A DNA stretch of 64,000 bases from Gemmatimonadota bacterium (GTDB lineage: Bacteria; Gemmatimonadota; Gemmatimonadetes; Longimicrobiales; Gaopeijiaceae), in contig JAJDXG010000020.1 in NCBI GenBank assembly GCA_022823365.1, positions 48,948-112,947 on the forward strand, given 5' to 3'. Positions 2,165 to 48,890 of the stretch are shown here, piece by piece; within the stretch, counting starts at the first letter, position 1; the number at the start of each line of letters is the position of its first letter. The position numbers and the translations under genes were made by a program. The notes below the pieces were generated by a model. The model saw nothing but the letters and a program-made list of their open reading frames with translations. It was not told the DNA's origin and ran no database searches.

Positions 2165-4534
2165 ATGACCCCACGCGCTCGCCTTATGACGGAGCTCAGC
2201 TCATCAGCATCCGCTCCCAGCACACCCCTCGACCACCTCGCCCGCACCCTCCGTGGCCGCGCCTCGGTCCCGAGTAACCAGGCAACCCCCGTGGCGATCC
2301 TGTGGACCGACCCCAAGGCCGAATGGCGCGCGCTTCTCCCGGTGGCTCTCACTCGCATACCGGAGCTGCTCGCGCTTGGCGACTATCACCCCGAACGCCG
2401 AACCGGTCCCGCGATCTGGCTGCGTTGCGTGGTGGATGGCGTGATCGAAGCACCAGGTCTCACCCCCGGCCGCACGCCAATCATCTACCTCCCGGGAGTG
2501 GAGCGTGGCCAGCTGCGCGCCGGCGAGGACTGTCCCGACCAACTGAAGCCACTCGTCGAGCTGATGTATCGCGGAGTCCTCTGGCACCACCCGAACGGCC
2601 GCGACTGGAGCGTAATGGCGTTCTTGGGCTCGTCCGCCGGACCGGACCTCGACATAGCGACCGATCAGGGTACCATCGCCGCGCTCCTCGGGGCATTGGA
2701 CCAGGTAGCCCTGACCTCGGTCGAGGAGATGCGGGACCGCCGCCTCGATGCTGCCGATTTCAACCAACTGGCCGGCGCGGACGCCATACGCGACATCCTG
2801 CGCTGGATGGCCGATCCCGAAGGCACGCGATCCCGGCTGGCGGGCAGTCGTTGGTATGCCTTCCGCGACGAGTGCCGTCGTGTACTCCGATTCGATCCCG
2901 AGAAGGATGCGGATGTGTCGGCTGGCGCCAGTCTGGGCGAAGGAAGCGGGCGCTGGGCTGACGTGTGGACCCGGTTCACGGAAGCACCTGAGGCCTTTCC
3001 GGGAGTACCCGAGGTGCTCGCACGGAGTCGTCCGGGCGAGGAGCTTCTGTTTCACCGCGACCGTTGGCCGGACCTCAACGAAGAGGATGAAGAATCGGTG
3101 CAGCGCGCACTGGCCAAGTTGGCCGGGCTGCCTCACGCCGATGCTTGCCGGATGATCGCGCGACTTGAGGAAGAGCACGCCCATCGCCGAACCTGGGTAT
3201 GGGCACGCCTGCGCCGTTCTCCATTCGCAATGTTGCTGGAGCCGCTGGCCCGCGTGGCGGACTCGGTGGGTTCGGCGATCGGAGGTATGACGCCCGACGA
3301 TGTGGCCGAGGTCTACGCGGACCGCGGATGGTACGCGGACGCCAGCGCCCGGGAGGCTCTTGCCCTTGCGCCCGCGGGAGAGGAGAAGATCGTCGCAGAC
3401 GCCGTCCGCCATTTACTCGAGCCTTGGCTTGACGGCTCTGCCCGCGCCTTGCAGGCGTCCATGGAGCGCCAACCGCTCCCGTCCGCCGGTAACCAGGCCA
3501 CCATCGTCGCAGGCGAGGATGAATGCCTCCTCTTCGTGGATGGGTTGCGGTACGAGCTCGGACGCCGATTGGCCGATCGGTTGGAGGCGACCGGGTCCAG
3601 GACAACGATCGCGCATCGCTGGGCGGCGACCCCGACAGTGACGGCCACCGCCAAACCTGCCGTCTGCCCTGTTGCCGTTGAAGTCACGGGAAATCAACTC
3701 GGTGCGACATTCCAACCCGTGATGAGAGATTCGGGCCGGATCGCCCACGTGAAGGAGCTCCGAGGAGCCATGGAGTCGGCCGGCTATCAGATAATCAACG
3801 CCGGCACGCTGGAGATTCCCTTGAACGCAGGCGCGCGCGGCTGGCTGGAGACGGGGGAAATCGACAAGCACGGCCACCATCACCGTGCCATCCCGTTCGC
3901 CCGCCAGATCGAGCACGAGCTGGACAGCCTGGTCCGTCAAATCGCGCGGCTGCTCAAGGCGGGCTGGCGCTCTGTGCGGATCGTTACCGACCACGGCTGG
4001 CTCCTTCTTCCAGGGGGACTGCCCATGGTCCGTCTGCCCAAGCACCTCACTGAGTCCAAGTGGGCGCGCTGCGCCGTCATCTCAAGAGACTCGACGCCGG
4101 ACGCTCCGCTCCATCCCTGGTACTGGAACGCCGGAGAGTGGTTTGCGACCCCGCCAGGCATCGCGTGCTTCAGCAAGCGGGACGAGTACGCACACGGTGG
4201 GCTCAGCATACAGGAGTGTCTGATTCCAGACATCCGGGTCGAAGGTGCGGAGGACGGCAGGACAACCGCCGTCATCCAGTCGATCTCCTGGGTGCGATTC
4301 CGCTGCAACATTTCCGTCCAAGTCCGGGGGGGCAGTGCTTCTGCTGACTTGCGTCTTGAAAGTCCCAGCGGTGAATCGGTGGCGTCCTTGACCAAGAAGA
4401 TCGACGAAGATGGTTTGGCCAGCCTCATCCTCGCCGACGACGAATACGAGGACGCCGCCCTGGTTCTCGTAGTCACCGACGCCGATGGCCGGATCCTCTC
4501 CCAAAGGAACACTCGCGCCGGAGTTGATTCATGA
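2165..4534 (+). CDS. pglZ: BREX phosphatase-like protein PglZ (type B)
   Basis: This 789-aa cytoplasmic protein is the alkaline-phosphatase-superfamily component of BREX phage exclusion. The N-terminal half (about 1-440) is family-specific and helical. The PglZ domain follows: a metal-binding motif in LLFVDGLRYELG near residue 457, the TPTVTATAKP segment near 490, and a TDHGWLL metal/His motif near 607. The length fits PglZ type B. Its stop codon overlaps the brxL start in an ATGA, so the two are translationally coupled. The start at 2165 has only a weak ribosome binding site; an ATG seven codons downstream (2186) is an alternative. In canonical BREX the pglX methyltransferase, brxC, brxB and brxA lie upstream; they are not in this window, where an unrelated gene precedes pglZ. 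Confidence 0.9.
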   Translation: MTPRARLMTELSSSASAPSTPLDHLARTLRGRASVPSNQATPVAILWTDPKAEWRALLPVALTRIPELLALGDYHPERRTGPAIWLRCVVDGVIEAPGLTPGRTPIIYLPGVERGQLRAGEDCPDQLKPLVELMYRGVLWHHPNGRDWSVMAFLGSSAGPDLDIATDQGTIAALLGALDQVALTSVEEMRDRRLDAADFNQLAGADAIRDILRWMADPEGTRSRLAGSRWYAFRDECRRVLRFDPEKDADVSAGASLGEGSGRWADVWTRFTEAPEAFPGVPEVLARSRPGEELLFHRDRWPDLNEEDEESVQRALAKLAGLPHADACRMIARLEEEHAHRRTWVWARLRRSPFAMLLEPLARVADSVGSAIGGMTPDDVAEVYADRGWYADASAREALALAPAGEEKIVADAVRHLLEPWLDGSARALQASMERQPLPSAGNQATIVAGEDECLLFVDGLRYELGRRLADRLEATGSRTTIAHRWAATPTVTATAKPAVCPVAVEVTGNQLGATFQPVMRDSGRIAHVKELRGAMESAGYQIINAGTLEIPLNAGARGWLETGEIDKHGHHHRAIPFARQIEHELDSLVRQIARLLKAGWRSVRIVTDHGWLLLPGGLPMVRLPKHLTESKWARCAVISRDSTPDAPLHPWYWNAGEWFATPPGIACFSKRDEYAHGGLSIQECLIPDIRVEGAEDGRTTAVIQSISWVRFRCNISVQVRGGSASADLRLESPSGESVASLTKKIDEDGLASLILADDEYEDAALVLVVTDADGRILSQRNTRAGVDS

Positions 4535-6594
4535 GCGCTTCGACCATCGAAATGGACTCGCTGGACCATGTCGCCAACGAGGCGTTCCCCGGCTACCTGG
4601 TGCGCAAGGATCTGGTGCGGCGGTACGCTCGCCAGTACCCGGTCCCGACCTACGTAGTCGAATTCCTCCTGGGCCGTTACTGCGCGAGCGTGGACGAAGA
4701 CGAGATCAACGAGGGATTGGAGATCGTCAAGCGACAGCTCCAAGGGCGTACTGTGCGGCCCACGGAGCAGGAGGTCTTCAAGTGGCGGGCCCGTGAGCGA
4801 GGATCCGTCCGGCTAATTGACATCGTTCGGGCTCGGCTCGACGCGAAGAACGACTGTTACATCGCCGAGCTTCCCAGTCTCGTGCTCAAGGACGCGCGTA
4901 TCGCAGGACCACTCGTCACCAACAACCAGCGCATTCTTTCCGATGGCTTCTACGCAGAGATCACGCTCGCATACGACGCGTTGATCGCGCAGGAGAAGAA
5001 CGGCCGGCCCTTCAGCGTTGCGGCGCTGAGGCCCATTCAGATGTCGGATCCGAACGTGCTCGACACCCTCGCTCGAGGCCGGCAAGCATTCACCACCTCG
5101 CAGTGGACCGACTTCCTTCTCCGTTCAACCGGTCTCGAGCCCGCAGCTCTCGACGAACGCGCCCGGCGAGTGGCGCTACTGCGCCTAGTCCCATTCGTCG
5201 AAAGCAACTACAACCTCGTCGAGCTGGGTCCGCGCGGAACCGGAAAGAGTCATGTATACCAGCAGATTTCGCCGTATTCCCATCTCCTTTCGGGTGGGAA
5301 GGCAACCGTCGCCAAGATGTTCGTCAACATGGCGAATGGACAGCGAGGTCTGGTCTGCCAGCACGATGTGGTCTGTTTCGACGAGGTCGCCGGCATCTCC
5401 TTCGACCAGAAGGACGGCGTCAACATCATGAAGGGATACATGGCCTCGGGAGAATTCAGTCGAGGAAAGGAGAGCATCCGGGCTGAAGGGTCACTCGTGA
5501 TGGTCGGCAACTTCGACGTCTCCGTTGAACAACAGCAGCGAGTGGCGCACCTCCTGAGTCCTCTTCCCAAGCAGATGCGCGACGACACCGCCTTCCACGA
5601 CCGCATCCACGCCTACGCTCCGGGCTGGGATTTCCCCAAAGTCGATCCGCGCGAGCACCTTACGGACCATTTTGGACTGGTAAACGATTTCCTGAGCGCC
5701 TGCTGGACCCGGCTCCGGCACACCACACGCCTGCCGCTCCTCCAAAACCGGGTATTCTTGGGTGGGGCGCTGTCCGGGCGGGACATCGAGGCCGTCCACA
5801 AGACCATCTCGGGACTCATCAAGCTGCTCTTCCCTGATCCAAAGATGGAAGTCGGCGACGACGATCTCGAATGGATGGTGCGGTTGGCGCTCGAATCCCG
5901 CCGGCGAGTGAAGGAGCAGCAGAAGCGGTGTCTCAAGGCTGAGTTCCGAAACACGCACTTCTCGTTCACGCTGGGCGTGGACGGAATCGAGCAGTTCGTC
6001 TCGACGCCTGAGCTACGCAGCGACGAGGCGATCGAAACGGACCCACTGCCACCAGGCCAGGTATGGGCGATCGGTCCGGGTGTGGAAGGCACTGGACCGG
6101 GGCTCTACCGCATCGAGGCGGTGGTTGGTCCGGGAGCTGGAGGAGCCAAGATCCTCAACCATCCGGTACCGCCTGCGTTCCGGGAGAGCGTGAAGGTCGG
6201 AGAGCAGAATCTCTACACGGGCGCAAAGGCGCTCGTTGGCGATCGGGATGCGCGGGCCCACCAGTACACGGTTCAGATGCAGCCGCGGGATTCGGACAAG
6301 TCAGGGACGGGGCTGGGGTTGCCCGTATTGGCAGCGCTGGTTGGTGGATTGCTGGAGAGGAAGACGCGCGGCGGCGCGATCATCGTCGGAGCCCTGAATC
6401 TTGGAGGATCGCTGGAACAGACACCTGACCCCGTCGCCATGGCGGAGCTGGCTGTGGACAAGCAGGCGAGCGCGTTGCTGATGCCGGTGGGAGCGCGGCG
6501 AGAGCTGATGAAGCTCGATGACGATGTGTGGACGAAGGTGAACATCGAGTTCTATCGGGACGCGCACGACGGGGTGTTCAAGTTGTTGGAGTGA
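4531..6594 (+). CDS. brxL: BREX Lon-related AAA+ protein BrxL
   Basis: This 687-aa protein is the last gene of a BREX operon and starts inside the pglZ stop (ATGA). The N-terminal 200 residues match the BrxL family. A Walker A motif (GPRGTGKSH) lies near residues 233-241 and a Walker B (VVCFDEVAG) near 280-288. The C-terminal 120 residues are Lon-protease-like (GLGLPVLAALVGGLLERK, ending FKLLE). In that domain I see GTGLG where Lon has its Ser-containing GPSAG, and no clear catalytic Lys, so proteolytic activity is doubtful. BrxL proteins are known as DNA-binding AAA+ assemblies needed for phage restriction in many BREX systems. A 124-bp gap separates it from the CBASS genes. Confidence 0.92.
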   Translation: MSASTIEMDSLDHVANEAFPGYLVRKDLVRRYARQYPVPTYVVEFLLGRYCASVDEDEINEGLEIVKRQLQGRTVRPTEQEVFKWRARERGSVRLIDIVRARLDAKNDCYIAELPSLVLKDARIAGPLVTNNQRILSDGFYAEITLAYDALIAQEKNGRPFSVAALRPIQMSDPNVLDTLARGRQAFTTSQWTDFLLRSTGLEPAALDERARRVALLRLVPFVESNYNLVELGPRGTGKSHVYQQISPYSHLLSGGKATVAKMFVNMANGQRGLVCQHDVVCFDEVAGISFDQKDGVNIMKGYMASGEFSRGKESIRAEGSLVMVGNFDVSVEQQQRVAHLLSPLPKQMRDDTAFHDRIHAYAPGWDFPKVDPREHLTDHFGLVNDFLSACWTRLRHTTRLPLLQNRVFLGGALSGRDIEAVHKTISGLIKLLFPDPKMEVGDDDLEWMVRLALESRRRVKEQQKRCLKAEFRNTHFSFTLGVDGIEQFVSTPELRSDEAIETDPLPPGQVWAIGPGVEGTGPGLYRIEAVVGPGAGGAKILNHPVPPAFRESVKVGEQNLYTGAKALVGDRDARAHQYTVQMQPRDSDKSGTGLGLPVLAALVGGLLERKTRGGAIIVGALNLGGSLEQTPDPVAMAELAVDKQASALLMPVGARRELMKLDDDVWTKVNIEFYRDAHDGVFKLLE

Positions 6595-43593: not shown

Positions 43594-45177
43594 TCAGGAC
43601 GCTCCCTGGTCGGGATGGAAGATCTGCGTGCGCGTCCGGCCTCCGGACACAGCCCTCGCGTCAACGACAGTTGGCCTCGCGTCCAGCGGAATCCGAGCCC
43701 GCCAGAGGTACTCGCCGTACCAGCGCATCGGCACCGTCCCCTCGCGATCTGCGGATTCCCACGCCACTTCGACGGATTCCCACTCCGCCGCGAGCAGCGG
43801 GCTCTTGCGCTCGTGGATGCGGATCATGACCAGGGCGCTGTCGCCGTCCGGTACGGTCAGCGGCTGACCCACGACGGGGATCGCGTTGTAGGCGTCGAGC
43901 CCCCGGCCCAGGAAGATGCGTTCCTGTATGGCCGTGGGGTGCTCGCCCTGGGACTGCACCACGTCGATGCGGCCGTCGCCGTCCAGGTCGGCGATGGCCA
44001 TGCCGAGCGTCCCGGGTGTTTCCGCGCCGGCGAACACCCCCGTCGCGACGCGCAGCCGGCCGGTTCCATCGTTGATCAGAAGGCGGTCGGGTCCGCTCAG
44101 CGAGCCGATCAGGAAGTCGGCGTCGGCGTCGGAATCGAAGTCCAGGAAGGCCACGACGTTGTCGTCCTCCCCGATGTTCTCCGAGGTGGGCCACCAGGCG
44201 TCCGTGGCATCCACGAACCGGCCCTCGCCGTCGTTGCGGAAGACGTGTTCGCGGCGGCGCGAGCCGCGTTCTCCGACGATTTCCCCGTCGTTGATGGTCA
44301 CGAGGTCGAGGAAACCGTCGCCGTCGAGGTCCATCGCCTCGAACTCGTAGTTGTTGGTGTACTGCGGCAGCCCGCGCGCGTCCTCCTCGAAGGTGCCGGT
44401 GCCGTCGTTGCGGAAGAGCAGGCTGCCCGCGCAGCGCTTGCACGACACCAGCACGTCCAGGTCGAAGTCGTTGTCGACGTCCACCAGCTCGAGGTCCCAG
44501 GAAAAGCGGACCAGGGTCGCGGGCATGCGCCCGTCGGTGGCGTCGGTGAAGCGGCCCGTGCCGTCGTTCAGCCAGAGGCGCGTGCGGCCGCCCTCGTTGG
44601 TCATGTTGTTGCCGGGGCCCCAGTCCGCCAGCACCAGGTCGAGGTCGCCGTCGCGGTCCACGTCCCCGGGCTCTGCATCGCCCAGGCTGAGCGGCATCTG
44701 TGGGAGATGGGTTGCGGTCCGCTCCTCGAAGGCGCCCTCTCCCATCCCCAGGTACAGCCGGCTCCGGGTCTGGTAGGTCGCCCCGACGAGAATGTCGGTA
44801 TTCCCGTCCCCGTCGAAGTCGCGCGCCTTGATGACCCGCGCGAGGTCCGGCGTGGAACCGAACACCCGACCCGTCACCTCCTCGAAGGGCTGTCCCGGCC
44901 CGCGGTTGGCGAACGCCCGGTTCAGCTCGGGCTCACCCGGCTCGGAATAGTTGCCCCCGTTCGCGAACAGCAGGTCGATCCGCCCGTCCCCGTCGATGTC
45001 CGCCAGCTCGACCTTGTTGGTCCACTCGCCGGTGGCAGGCAGGAGCTCGTCGGTGGCGTCGTGCCAGAGGGCGGTGGGCAGCGCGCCCGTCGCTGTTTCG
45101 GCGGAAGAGTCCCGCTGGTCCGCCGTTTCCGCGCATGCAACCGATAGGCTCACGAGGAGCGCGAGGGCTGCCCTCAC
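43594..45177 (-). CDS. FG-GAP/VCBS-repeat lipoprotein
   Basis: This protein has about 527 aa. The track start lies inside sequence brought in by a repeat-bounded insertion. The GTG at 45177 gives VRAALALLVSLSVAC, a lipoprotein signal, and is preferred. The rest consists of repeated FG-GAP/VCBS motifs with calcium-binding-like DxDxDG loops (DIDGDGRIDLLFANGG, DFDGDGNTDILVGA, DVDRDGDLDLVLADWG, DLDGDGFLDLVTINDG), forming a seven-bladed-propeller-type fold on the cell surface. Before the upstream insertion it would have started one base after the LVIVD gene stop. Confidence 0.85.
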   Translation of the reverse strand: MRAALALLVSLSVACAETADQRDSSAETATGALPTALWHDATDELLPATGEWTNKVELADIDGDGRIDLLFANGGNYSEPGEPELNRAFANRGPGQPFEEVTGRVFGSTPDLARVIKARDFDGDGNTDILVGATYQTRSRLYLGMGEGAFEERTATHLPQMPLSLGDAEPGDVDRDGDLDLVLADWGPGNNMTNEGGRTRLWLNDGTGRFTDATDGRMPATLVRFSWDLELVDVDNDFDLDVLVSCKRCAGSLLFRNDGTGTFEEDARGLPQYTNNYEFEAMDLDGDGFLDLVTINDGEIVGERGSRRREHVFRNDGEGRFVDATDAWWPTSENIGEDDNVVAFLDFDSDADADFLIGSLSGPDRLLINDGTGRLRVATGVFAGAETPGTLGMAIADLDGDGRIDVVQSQGEHPTAIQERIFLGRGLDAYNAIPVVGQPLTVPDGDSALVMIRIHERKSPLLAAEWESVEVAWESADREGTVPMRWYGEYLWRARIPLDARPTVVDARAVSGGRTRTQIFHPDQGAS

Positions 45178-45180
45178 GTC

Positions 45181-45200
45181 AATCCATCGACGCCGCCAGC
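45181..45200. repeat. 20-bp direct repeat, left copy
   Basis: AATCCATCGACGCCGCCAGC is identical to 46997-47016. It lies between the HIRAN gene and the native start of the FG-GAP gene. Confidence 0.85.
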
Positions 45201-45221
45201 CCTCGCTGAAGAGATAGGCCA

Positions 45222-46007
45222 TCAACCGACCGTCGCCTCGTCATCCTCCCTCACCTCCGTACTTCCTACCAGAGGCGTGAAGTCCGGACGGCTCATAAGC
45301 TCGTGCGAGGGCCAGGGAGCGCTCATCTCAATAAGCACGCTCGGCTTCATCGAGGTATATCGCATGGTCGTACGAACCACTTCTACGCGGTAGTCCCCTG
45401 GCTCATTCGCCATAGTTTTTGACAGGTCATAAGCCAGATACCGAGGCGCCCATCCGATCATGTGATAGTCTGTCGTCTGCATCTGCACAGCCAAGCGCGT
45501 TGCGGGATTGGTAAGCTCCAGTGTCGCATACAACTTCTCTCCAGCCTCAAGACTGCGGACCCGTTCTCTTGCAGCCGAACTCACATGTCGTTGTCCATGC
45601 AATAGAAAACGGCATTTAAACCGACCATCCTGATCTTTTGTGATTCTTGGGAAGACCTCATATGCGTCCGTAACTCGGGTGCCACCGTTTACGGACAAGA
45701 TCTGAATGGCATCCGCTTGTCCGGTCAGATCCAGACCGCGCAGGTATTCTTTGAAATCCGGTCTGGCCGGATTCATTACGCGGTTCTTGAACAACGGAAA
45801 CAACTCTGACGATCGATAATCTCCTTGTAAATTCGGGAACTCGATTAACTCAGGAAATCCTGCCTCCTTCTTGGCACGCATCGCTCCACTGATGTAGCGG
45901 AAGCGATACGTGGAACGTTCGACATCCGCATCTAGCCGGCCCACCGGAAACCATTTCTTGCTGCTTCCGGCATCTCGCCACGCCAAGAACAACGTTCTAT
46001 TGCTCAT
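45222..46007 (-). CDS. HIRAN-domain protein with a HipS-like N-terminal region
   Basis: This is a 261-aa soluble protein. The C-terminal part (about 155-240) has the HIRAN pattern: GEKLYATLELTNPATRLAVQMQTTDYHMIGWAPRYLAYDL, a fold that binds DNA ends or stalled-fork DNA in HLTF/Rad5 and occurs alone in bacteria. The N-terminal part (TLFLAWRDAGSSKKWFPVGRLDADVERSTYRFRYISG ... SSELFPLFKNRVMNPARPDFKEYLRGL) recalls the first N-terminal subdomain of HipA. It overlaps the HipA-like kinase gene by ATGA, so the two are co-translated. It may restrain the kinase and sense DNA; that is inference. Confidence 0.75.
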   Translation of the reverse strand: MSNRTLFLAWRDAGSSKKWFPVGRLDADVERSTYRFRYISGAMRAKKEAGFPELIEFPNLQGDYRSSELFPLFKNRVMNPARPDFKEYLRGLDLTGQADAIQILSVNGGTRVTDAYEVFPRITKDQDGRFKCRFLLHGQRHVSSAARERVRSLEAGEKLYATLELTNPATRLAVQMQTTDYHMIGWAPRYLAYDLSKTMANEPGDYRVEVVRTTMRYTSMKPSVLIEMSAPWPSHELMSRPDFTPLVGSTEVREDDEATVG

Positions 46008-46897
46008 CGGTCCATCACCCTCAACTGTTCAAGGCTCGCGTGCATCACTTCAAGGGCAAACTCCCTTTCTGACGCAGACATCCAACCCTCTGGAACGCGG
46101 TCTACCGTCCGAGTTATCGAACCCACCTTCAGTCTGTCAAGCCTCGCTAGAGCGGGAGAAAACAAGTCCGGGTACAGGCGCACAGCATGCTTTACCAACG
46201 CCAACGGGCTAGGTCCGCGTCGCTCATCGCCGGACCAGAACACGGCACCGCGTCCCTTCGCCACGTACTTCCCTACCTCATTCCGTACCAAGTACGCGCG
46301 TCGGCGTTCATCAAGGAGCTCCCGGCCGAGCGAGGAGGCGTGGTCAAAGGATGGTGCGATGCCGCCCCGCCACTGATCGCCATCTCTACGCCTGACGATC
46401 CCCCAGTTCTCATGGTGACGATCAGTGTTGCCGATCAGTGCATCCAGCACGAAGTAATCGGCAACCCGAAGCTTGGCTCGCTTTTTCGCTTCGTCGGCAA
46501 CGAAGACACGTTCCATGACAGCCAGTACGTTCTCCAGGGTATGATCGGACTGACCAAAGGTCACGTCAGGGTTGTAGTCGAAGACGACTCGCTCCAGCAA
46601 CTGATTGCCGTGAACCAACTCGTATCCCTTCGGTGTGAACGACTCGGAGGTAGATCCTCGATCATTGCCGAATCGCGCCAGTTCGACCGGCGCGTGGGGT
46701 ATTCCGAGGAGATTCGCCACTTCGGCCGCGATCTTCTCCGCCCAGTGTTCACCGGTGTTCGGCCGAGGAAATTTAAACAGCCAGTCCGATCCGTCTTCTT
46801 CACGGTACCAGAACTTCCTCTTGCTCCCCATCTCCTCTTCGGGTTCGTCGAGAAGCCACTCCTCTTGGATCCCGACGACAGGATACGGATCAGGCAC
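46004..46897 (-). CDS. HipA-like kinase
   Basis: This 297-aa protein starts at GTG behind GAGG. It keeps kinase features: an ATP-binding Lys in WLFKFPRP (near 42), a catalytic loop GNTDRHHENW (near 154-163) and a metal-binding Asp in APSFDHASSLG (near 182). It lacks the N-terminal subdomain of full-length HipA, like HipT of the HipBST system, and the partner gene carries a region resembling that subdomain. No XRE antitoxin is present. It lies in a 1.8-kb segment between 20-bp direct repeats that splits a host operon. Confidence 0.82.
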   Translation of the reverse strand: MPDPYPVVGIQEEWLLDEPEEEMGSKRKFWYREEDGSDWLFKFPRPNTGEHWAEKIAAEVANLLGIPHAPVELARFGNDRGSTSESFTPKGYELVHGNQLLERVVFDYNPDVTFGQSDHTLENVLAVMERVFVADEAKKRAKLRVADYFVLDALIGNTDRHHENWGIVRRRDGDQWRGGIAPSFDHASSLGRELLDERRRAYLVRNEVGKYVAKGRGAVFWSGDERRGPSPLALVKHAVRLYPDLFSPALARLDRLKVGSITRTVDRVPEGWMSASEREFALEVMHASLEQLRVMDR

Positions 46898-46994
46898 GGC
46901 GAGCCTCGTTTGCGGCCGATCGACTCAGCAGCAGTGGACGTTCCTTCGTGCCCTTCGCCGTTCTTGCTACCGAGCGGGAGTTCGTGGCAGCCCC

Positions 46995-48890
46995 CTAATC
47001 CATCGACGCCGCCAGCTCCCGCATGGCCTGTGCGAGCCAGCGCTGGCGGGGCGCGTCGCCCAGCCGCTCGCCGGCGTTCACCTCGTCGGCGTTGGCGTCC
47101 AGGGTGGCCGCGGTCTCCCGCAACTGCGCGGCGACGTCGGGGCTCGGGGATGATGCAGCGGCCGTAAGCACCTCGCGCGATCGCTGCAGCAGCGAGGGCT
47201 GGATGTCGCCGGCGCGTTCGAGCTGGTCGAGGTACGATCCTGCCACGGCGGGGTGGGCGGGCCAGATGAACATCGGCTGCAACTGGGCGTTGAACTCCTC
47301 CACCTGCACCATGTTCGCGGCGTCGATTTCGTTCTGGGAGAGATGCTCGCTGGGCGACAGGCGGAAGACGTCGAGGCCGCGCGTGATCTCGGCGCCGTAG
47401 ATGAAGCCGTTGTTCCAGTAGGTGGACCAGTAGCCGCCGGTGTACATCTCTTCCTCGCTCAGCGGGCCGCGATCGAAGAACGCGATCTCGACGGGGTCGG
47501 ATGCGTCGGTGAAGTCGAGCATCGACAGGCCGCCCTGGTACCAGGCCTGCACCATGATGTCGCGTCCGGGCACCGGGATGACGGCGCCGTTGTGGGCCAC
47601 GCAGTTCTCCAGCTCGCTCTGCGGCACCGGCAGCTTGTAGTAGCCGGCGAGCTCCATCTGCCCATCGACGATTTCGAAGATGGCGTTCGCGCCCCAGTCG
47701 GGCGGATCGGTGGAGCGGCAGCGGGGCTGGCCTCCTCCGCCCCACTCGTCGGTGAAGAGGATCTTGGTGCCGTCGTTGTTGAAGGTGGCCGAGTGCCAGT
47801 AGGCGAAGTTGGGGTCCACCACCTCGTCCAGGCGCGCAGGGTTCACCGGGTCGGAGATGTCGAGCAGGATGCCGTTGCCCGCGCACGCGCCGGCGCCAAG
47901 CCCGATCTCCGGGAAGACGGTGATGTCGTGGCACTGGTTGGTGAGCCGCGACTCCTGGGTGCCCTCGCCGTGGTCGCCCCCCTGCCAGAGGCCGCCGTAC
48001 TCGCCGGTCTCGGGGTCGGCGAAGATGCGCGGCATGCTGACGATTTCGGCAGCGGCCGGGTTGGCGAGCGGCACCTGGATCACCTCGATGCGGAAGTACG
48101 CGGTGTTGGGATCCTCCTCCGGGGGCAGCCCCGAGCACCCGGGCAGCTCGTCGGCGGGACGCACCCCCGAGGTGCCGGAGACGTAGACGTAGACGTTCTC
48201 GTCGTCGTCGGGATCGGTGACCACGGTGTGTGTATGGGACCCGCGGCAGGTCTGGACCGCCGCCACCTGGCGGGGCGCCTCCAGGTTGGAAAGGTCGAAG
48301 ATGCGCACCCCGCGGAAGCGCTCGACGCTGACGCTGTCCTGGACGCCCTCGGTGCCGCAGTCGAGGCGGCCGCGGGTTTCCTGCGCGGACATGAACAGGA
48401 GGTCGCCGTAGATGGACACGTCGCCCTGGCCGCCGGGACATACCACTGCGACGTGCAGCTCGATGTTGCGGGGGTCGGAGATGTCGTAGACCTGGAAGCC
48501 GTTGTAATTGCCCTGGAAGAGGTAATTCCCCTGGAAGGCGAGGTCCGTGTTGGAGAAGCCCGCCCCCTCGCGTGGCGTCTCGGGGTTGAAGAAGCCTTCC
48601 GGACGCGGCGTGGTCGCCACCAACTCCAGGTTCCAGATGGCGCTTTCGGCGTCCAGCCAGCCCGCGGCCAGGTTCACCCGCGGGTCCAGGATGTCCCAGT
48701 CGAAGGCGGGAAGGGCGGGCTCGGCGAGCGAGTCGGTGCGTACCTCGGCGAGCTCCTCGGGCCTCGGCTGACCGGGCGGAACGGCCTGGGCGGCCGCGTA
48801 CGCCGGCAGCGCAAGCGCCGCAAGCACGATGCCCATCCACAACGTGCGCATCCCCATCGGTCCTCGATCGATCTGAAGCCGCTTCTTCAT
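46995..48890 (-). CDS. LVIVD-repeat exported protein
   Basis: The start at 48890 is chosen for spacing from GGGAGA. The 631-aa protein has a signal peptide (WMGIVLAALALPAYAAAQA) and repeated LVIVD-type propeller blades (NYNGFQVYDISDPRNIELHVAVV, FRGVRIFDLSNLEAPRQVAAVQTC, MLDFTDASDPVEIAFFDRG, GAEITRGLDVFRLS). Such proteins are secreted or surface beta-propellers of unknown ligand. It follows the RCC1-DUF305 gene by 64 bp. Its C-terminal codons (ELAASMD) form one copy of the 20-bp repeat, so its stop codon was rebuilt (TAG for an inferred original TGA) by the insertion. Confidence 0.85.
   Translation of the reverse strand: MKKRLQIDRGPMGMRTLWMGIVLAALALPAYAAAQAVPPGQPRPEELAEVRTDSLAEPALPAFDWDILDPRVNLAAGWLDAESAIWNLELVATTPRPEGFFNPETPREGAGFSNTDLAFQGNYLFQGNYNGFQVYDISDPRNIELHVAVVCPGGQGDVSIYGDLLFMSAQETRGRLDCGTEGVQDSVSVERFRGVRIFDLSNLEAPRQVAAVQTCRGSHTHTVVTDPDDDENVYVYVSGTSGVRPADELPGCSGLPPEEDPNTAYFRIEVIQVPLANPAAAEIVSMPRIFADPETGEYGGLWQGGDHGEGTQESRLTNQCHDITVFPEIGLGAGACAGNGILLDISDPVNPARLDEVVDPNFAYWHSATFNNDGTKILFTDEWGGGGQPRCRSTDPPDWGANAIFEIVDGQMELAGYYKLPVPQSELENCVAHNGAVIPVPGRDIMVQAWYQGGLSMLDFTDASDPVEIAFFDRGPLSEEEMYTGGYWSTYWNNGFIYGAEITRGLDVFRLSPSEHLSQNEIDAANMVQVEEFNAQLQPMFIWPAHPAVAGSYLDQLERAGDIQPSLLQRSREVLTAAASSPSPDVAAQLRETAATLDANADEVNAGERLGDAPRQRWLAQAMRELAASMD
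46997..47016. repeat. 20-bp direct repeat, right copy (3' end of the LVIVD gene)
   Basis: This is identical to 45181-45200. It covers the last six codons of the LVIVD gene and the first base of its stop codon. The 1,796 bp between the two copies contain the HipA-like and HIRAN genes and nothing else. Confidence 0.85.

Follow-up and report, generated by a model that had tools for sequence, protein, structure and literature searches.

The question of how small defence or toxin-antitoxin modules that encode no recombinase travel from one genome to another is still open, and it is raised by a locus in the genome of a Gemmatimonadota bacterium (GenBank assembly GCA_022823365.1, contig JAJDXG010000020.1). 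A 64-kb stretch of this contig, hereafter referred to as the window, contains a 1.8-kb cassette of two genes, a hipI-like kinase gene and a hipN-like gene coding for a HIRAN domain protein. The cassette, which is a hipIN (PDC-M03) module, arrived by insertion into an operon of an LVIVD-repeat gene and a gene for an FG-GAP repeat lipoprotein, and is bounded by a perfect direct repeat of the LVIVD gene end (Table 1). At this locus, sister species have either an occupied or an empty allele, a second, diverged module sits at the identical nucleotide, and scars at gene ends in a wider set of hipIN loci are readable as a record of past recombination.

Insertion of the cassette at the end of the LVIVD gene

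The sequence AATCCATCGACGCCGCCAGC was found twice by scanning the window, both copies being located on the forward strand with a spacing of 1,816 bp and bounding the two-gene cassette exactly. These are the only perfect matches in the 3.8-Mb genome, and no other exact 20-mer repeat exists in the window outside a single gene that codes for internal protein repeats. For a 20-mer with three mismatches allowed, about 0.01 matches per window are expected by chance, and the longest exact word common to shuffled flanks of the same size and composition was 16 nt or less in 2,000 trials. If two mismatches are tolerated, the repeat grows to 26 nt (24/26). The G+C content is 0.51–0.60 in the cassette vs. 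0.65–0.71 in the flanks. The right copy coincides with the 3' terminus of the LVIVD gene and takes in the T of the TAG stop codon (46997-46995). When the flanks were fused in script, with the cassette and one copy removed, the sequence read ...GATGGATTGACGTGAGG, containing the junction GAT TGA C GTG. A 13-nt word across the left junction (CAGCGAGGGCTGG, 45196-45208) reappears inverted inside the LVIVD gene at 47190-47202; it is possibly a trace of template switching, or a chance match.

Seven other genomes of the genus contain LVIVD orthologues with 95–98% identity (genomes are numbered with G, the window genome being G000; collected loci are numbered with L). Three of these (G004, G008, and G010) have an empty site, where a single LVIVD 3' end is followed by TGA, a G, and the FG-GAP start codon ATG. 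They read ...GATGGA[T/C]TGAGATGAGG and match the reconstructed junction but for two start-codon bases, the native FG-GAP start being GTG in the window and ATG in the relatives. As G004 and G010 hardly differ from each other (99.7% identity over the FG-GAP gene), the empty sites represent two independent lineages. The agreement of these single-copy sites with the reconstructed junction identifies the event as an insertion, in which the incoming DNA gave the LVIVD gene a new TAG stop codon. A preliminary description of the window had proposed the exact flanking of the cassette by the repeat, the LVIVD end with a rebuilt stop codon as its right copy, an original tight junction of TGA, one base, and the start codon, and the lack of a recombinase in the 1.8 kb. 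All of these points are borne out, the junction by the three empty sites, each with a single 20-mer, in relatives with adjacent LVIVD and FG-GAP genes.

In G002 a related hipI module starts at the identical nucleotide after the LVIVD gene. The kinases of G000 and G002 are mutually nearest (100/100) and fall outside a clade formed by four further Gemmatimonadota kinases, but the two congeneric copies have separate histories: the synonymous divergence (dS) between these genomes is 1.22 for hipI vs. 0.19 for the LVIVD gene and 0.195 for the FG-GAP gene, a six-fold gap. The modules thus were not simply inherited together with their flanks, and the insertion site appears to have been used more than once, by two diverged modules. 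A 33-nt block of the leader (46928-46960 in the window, 3403-3435 in L007) has 97% identity between G000 and G002, though hipI is near synonymous saturation, and is possibly a regulatory element. Conserved element termini were sought in the leader and the tail of the cassette, and this block of the G002 leader was the only match. The left junction of G002 falls in an assembly gap, with one contig stopping inside hipN and the contig with the FG-GAP gene starting after its first 95 codons.

The preliminary description had held that relatives with another junction in place of the cassette, or with a cassette lacking the repeat, would speak against it. Neither was found in the close clade, but distant congeners carry other sequence without the repeat, and the left junction of G002 is lost to the gap. 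In the more distant congeners G006 (L010) and G005 (L011), an AbrB-like reading frame is located at the hipIN insertion point just after the LVIVD gene, from position 3364; these inserts lack the 20-bp repeat and have no evident toxin partner. G001 has a short, different leader at this point, likewise without the repeat. The bases TAGGGGG that follow the LVIVD gene in the window also occur in G002 and in the hipIN-free G006, and TAGGG occurs in G001 and G006, both of which lack hipIN. The right-hand junction therefore may be the end of a donor LVIVD gene and not the terminus of an element.

According to the preliminary description, the insertion had separated two co-transcribed genes. The insertion does lie between them, but their separation is doubtful, as the FG-GAP gene looks translationally coupled to hipN. 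The TGA stop codon of hipN overlaps an ATG (TGATG, 45224-45220), from which the frame continues through the left repeat copy into the FG-GAP protein (MAYLFSEGWRRRWIDVRAALALL...), adding 15 residues (MAYLFSEGWRRRWIDVRAALALLVSLSVACA) before the old start. No promoter-like site was found between hipN and the FG-GAP gene, and the single terminator-like site detected there is within chance level. Given the overlapping ATG and the open frame, the insertion probably re-coupled the operon, so that the FG-GAP gene now would be translationally tied to hipN and not cut off. The locus thereby illustrates a way in which the translation of a host operon may come to include an inserted module.

Table 1. Features of the hipIN insertion locus in the window
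Feature	Position	Strand	Remarks
FG-GAP repeat lipoprotein gene	43594..45177	-	Pfam FG-GAP_3; native start GTG at 45177 (relatives: ATG); ATG at 45222 as possible new start
Direct repeat, left copy	45181..45200	-	Putatively left over from the LVIVD 3' end of the recipient; the native junction TGA C GTG follows
Tail, 21 nt, hipN stop to left repeat copy	45201..45221	-	Crossed by the frame from the ATG overlapping the hipN stop into the FG-GAP gene
hipN-like gene, 261 aa	45222..46007	-	C-terminal HIRAN; PDC-M03B
hipI-like kinase gene, 297 aa	46004..46897	-	HipA_C; PDC-M03A; 4-nt overlap with hipN (ATGA)
Leader, 99 nt, LVIVD stop to hipI	46898..46996	-	Contains the 33-nt block common with G002
Direct repeat, right copy	46997..47016	-	LVIVD 3' end with the first stop-codon base
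LVIVD-repeat gene, insertion target	46995..48860	-	Pfam LVIVD and relatives; TAG stop brought by the insert; the reconstructed empty site has TGA

Gene-end repeats at other hipIN loci

Relatives of hipI were collected at 80 loci across many phyla, and both flanks of each cassette were compared, which was possible for 75 loci including the window. Direct repeats scoring above all of 441 cross-locus comparisons, which served as null, were detected at seven of the 75 (L103, L116, L050, L053, L049, L062, and the window). As a control, random intervals of 1.8 kb drawn from the collected loci had a repeat in 9 of 406 cases (Fisher p = 0.006 against the hipIN loci, or 0.018 if L050 and L053 are counted once). 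Comparison of the flanks at the protein level added an eighth locus, L117 (8/75). Among the further Gemmatimonadota hipIN loci L038, L039, L041, L153, and L155, no flanking repeats were found.

The repeats are 20 to about 170 bp long and consist of the ends of unrelated neighbouring genes. They represent the start of hsdR at L050 and L062 (Pfam HSDR_N) and, by sequence likeness, at L053, the start of a sodium:solute symporter gene at L116, and the ends of a mechanosensitive channel gene at L049, of an hsdS-like gene at L103 (by sequence likeness), and of an Eco57I-type methylase gene at L117. The copies at L049 differ mainly synonymously (dS 1.43, nonsynonymous divergence dN 0.135) and thus are the ends of two separately evolved genes rather than duplicates created by the insertion. 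At L062, a remnant of the hsdR start and then an hsdS-like end precede hipI, which looks like a splice of part of a different hsdS-hipIN-hsdR locus into this one. L117 (JAJYFE010000004.1, 2736-9899), from a planctomycetotal metagenome-assembled genome (MAG), contains five copies of the methylase C-terminus, one intact and four partial and diverged, which alternate with an SDH-type protease gene, hipIN and an unknown gene, a phosphoribosyltransferase-like/DprA-like pair, and a trypsin-like gene; this arrangement reads as an array punctuated by a single gene end.

Two further patterns were observed in the collected loci. In L088, L095, and L105, whose contigs are labelled Latescibacterota and Gemmatimonadota, the same reductase-like gene end is located directly upstream of hipI, reflecting either the transfer of a larger block or a binning error. 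At L079, 87 codons of a RecD-like helicase gene (P-loop region) are present on both sides of hipIN, about 3.7–4.0 kb upstream and 1.9–2.2 kb downstream, the distance between the hipIN flanks being about 5.9 kb.

Possible routes of insertion

The preliminary description had left the mobilisation route unexplained. The repeat need not indicate a cryptic mobile element, and the varied, often diverged gene-end repeats at the other loci point to homology-assisted recombination. We infer that the donor would have been a related genome already having a hipIN module behind its LVIVD gene. A fragment of donor DNA would have recombined by homology within the recipient LVIVD gene, its other end would have been joined illegitimately 20 bp before the end of the recipient's own LVIVD gene, and this recipient end would have stayed behind as the left repeat copy. 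We consider this recombinase-free route the most likely one, with about even chances that it brought in the cassette. Since the repeats are varied gene ends of varied length and sequence, a transposase with a fixed duplication length or one shared attachment (att) site fits poorly. The pattern fits homology-facilitated illegitimate recombination, in which one side of the module is anchored by homology to a gene end and the other is joined without homology, and signs of a donor-type tract and an opposite non-homologous join are suggestive at L049 and L062.

Several points weigh against homology-assisted recombination. The repeat copies in the window are identical over only 20 bp, and the donor end is indistinguishable from the recipient end; with so short a repeat, the window alone cannot separate this route from a short target duplication or an att core. 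A recombination breakpoint or donor tract was sought within the LVIVD gene, but none was clear. Most hipIN loci have no repeat, and the excess over random intervals is modest, not being significant when loci with any control hit are counted. All evidence stems from genome assemblies, most of them MAGs. At L116, an apparent IS5-type transposase gene end (about 4720-4850, read by eye) adjoins the upstream copy of the symporter start, possibly reflecting the involvement of an insertion sequence at this locus.

The identical starting nucleotide of two diverged hipI modules in G000 and G002, the regenerated LVIVD gene end, and the AbrB-like cargo at the identical point in G005 and G006 would agree with site-specific integration. 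The cassette would then be a non-autonomous element using the 20-bp LVIVD 3' end as att core, with a recombinase acting in trans and the gene end being regenerated like that of tRNA genes by islands at their 3' ends. We consider this unlikely, as the insert itself encodes no recombinase, the AbrB-like inserts lack a second copy, and where other hipIN loci have repeats, these derive from unrelated gene ends and have no common att sequence. The identical junction of G000 and G002, their common leader block, and their sister kinases could also result from one old insertion in the genus, after which the left copy was retained while the cassettes diverged, were swapped, or were lost among congeners via homologous recombination in the flanks. 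Flank conservation is sufficient for such exchange, but the left remnant is still identical in 20 of 20 positions though the synonymous sites of hipI are saturated, and the empty sites of the close sisters are intact and scar-free, which renders a single old event improbable.

Perfect short direct repeats bounding an insert are also expected from transposition with a 20-bp target-site duplication and a transposase in trans. This appears very improbable, since the insert carries no transposase gene, no termini are common to the hipIN loci apart from the matching G002 leader, the length of the repeat varies by locus, and the insertion nucleotide is identical to that of G002. The least credible explanation is an artefact of assembly or binning of the MAG, which consists of 63 contigs, with the G002 contig breaking inside the corresponding cassette. 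Both junctions are internal to a 113-kb contig, the right one recurs in G002, both cassette genes are intact, and a repeat of 20 bp is too small to confuse an ordinary assembly.

The cargo and comparison with known systems

The hipI product matches Pfam HipA_C (4.6e-13) and PADLOC PDC-M03A (1.1e-87), and its kinase motifs are invariant across the alignment. Its AlphaFold model (mean pLDDT, the predicted local distance difference test, of 93) matches the folds of CtkA, HipA, and HipT. The hipN product matches Pfam HIRAN at residues 133-225 (6.6e-7) and PADLOC PDC-M03B (3.6e-72), and part of its model (mean pLDDT 89) matches the HIRAN domain of human HLTF in Foldseek. According to Gerdes et al. 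(2021; PMC8262856), hipIN combines the kinase HipI with a putative antitoxin, HipN, made of HipS-like and HIRAN domains, and HIRAN is proposed to detect phage DNA ends, thereby activating the kinase for abortive infection. The window cassette agrees with this system and with PDC-M03 in the order of kinase and partner, the small HipA-type kinase lacking the N-terminal subdomain of about 100 aa, the C-terminal HIRAN of the downstream partner, and the strong PADLOC matches. It differs in that no HipS-like N-terminal domain was recovered in the hipN product by Foldseek or profile search, despite the confident model. The module is thus a candidate abortive-infection toxin-antitoxin system, in which HipN would act as DNA-end sensor and inhibitor and HipI as toxic kinase. 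PDC-M03 was not found by name in a literature search. No match was obtained in IMG/VR, and collections of phages and plasmids yielded only matches of at most about 35% identity. The available portion of PMC8262856 makes no mention of hipIN insertions bounded by gene-end repeats.

With integrative islands at the 3' ends of genes and tRNA genes, the insertion shares the regenerated target end and the short direct repeats; it differs by lacking an integrase and an att sequence common to hipIN sites. A resemblance also exists to restriction-modification genes, for which insertion with a long and variable target duplication has been reported (Nobusato 2000, as cited in PMC1643837 and PMC3031569). 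Both cases involve a small defence module without recombinase, a flanking direct repeat apparently of target sequence with a length varying between loci, and an empty site in relatives, here G004, G008, and G010. The window differs in its cargo (kinase and HIRAN protein) and its repeat of only 20 bp, and simple target duplication does not explain some other hipIN loci, whose copies were already diverged genes.

Homology-facilitated illegitimate recombination is known in transformable bacteria and, at low frequency, in conjugation of Escherichia coli (PMC3240628), and has been proposed for the type VI immunity arrays of Vibrio (PMC5361080). The likeness to the latter consists in homology at one gene end, an illegitimate join opposite, old ends left behind, and successive events that can build arrays, for which L117 may be compared; cargo and hosts are different, and a donor tract was not demonstrated in the window. 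As a tentative and rather doubtful extension, hipIN, and perhaps small defence cassettes generally, might spread across phyla without recombinase as fragments of cassette plus gene end, with the attached end of a conserved gene pairing with the homologous gene of the next host, and arrays such as L117, punctuated by diverged copies of one gene end, growing by repetition. With the present locus, a passive, homology-assisted route becomes testable in the hipIN family, which was not linked to it in the literature searched. The cargo is of a known kind and the style of insertion has close precedents; to these the present locus adds the comparison of empty and occupied sites in sister species, two diverged modules at one site, a probably re-coupled operon, and gene-end scars across hipIN loci.

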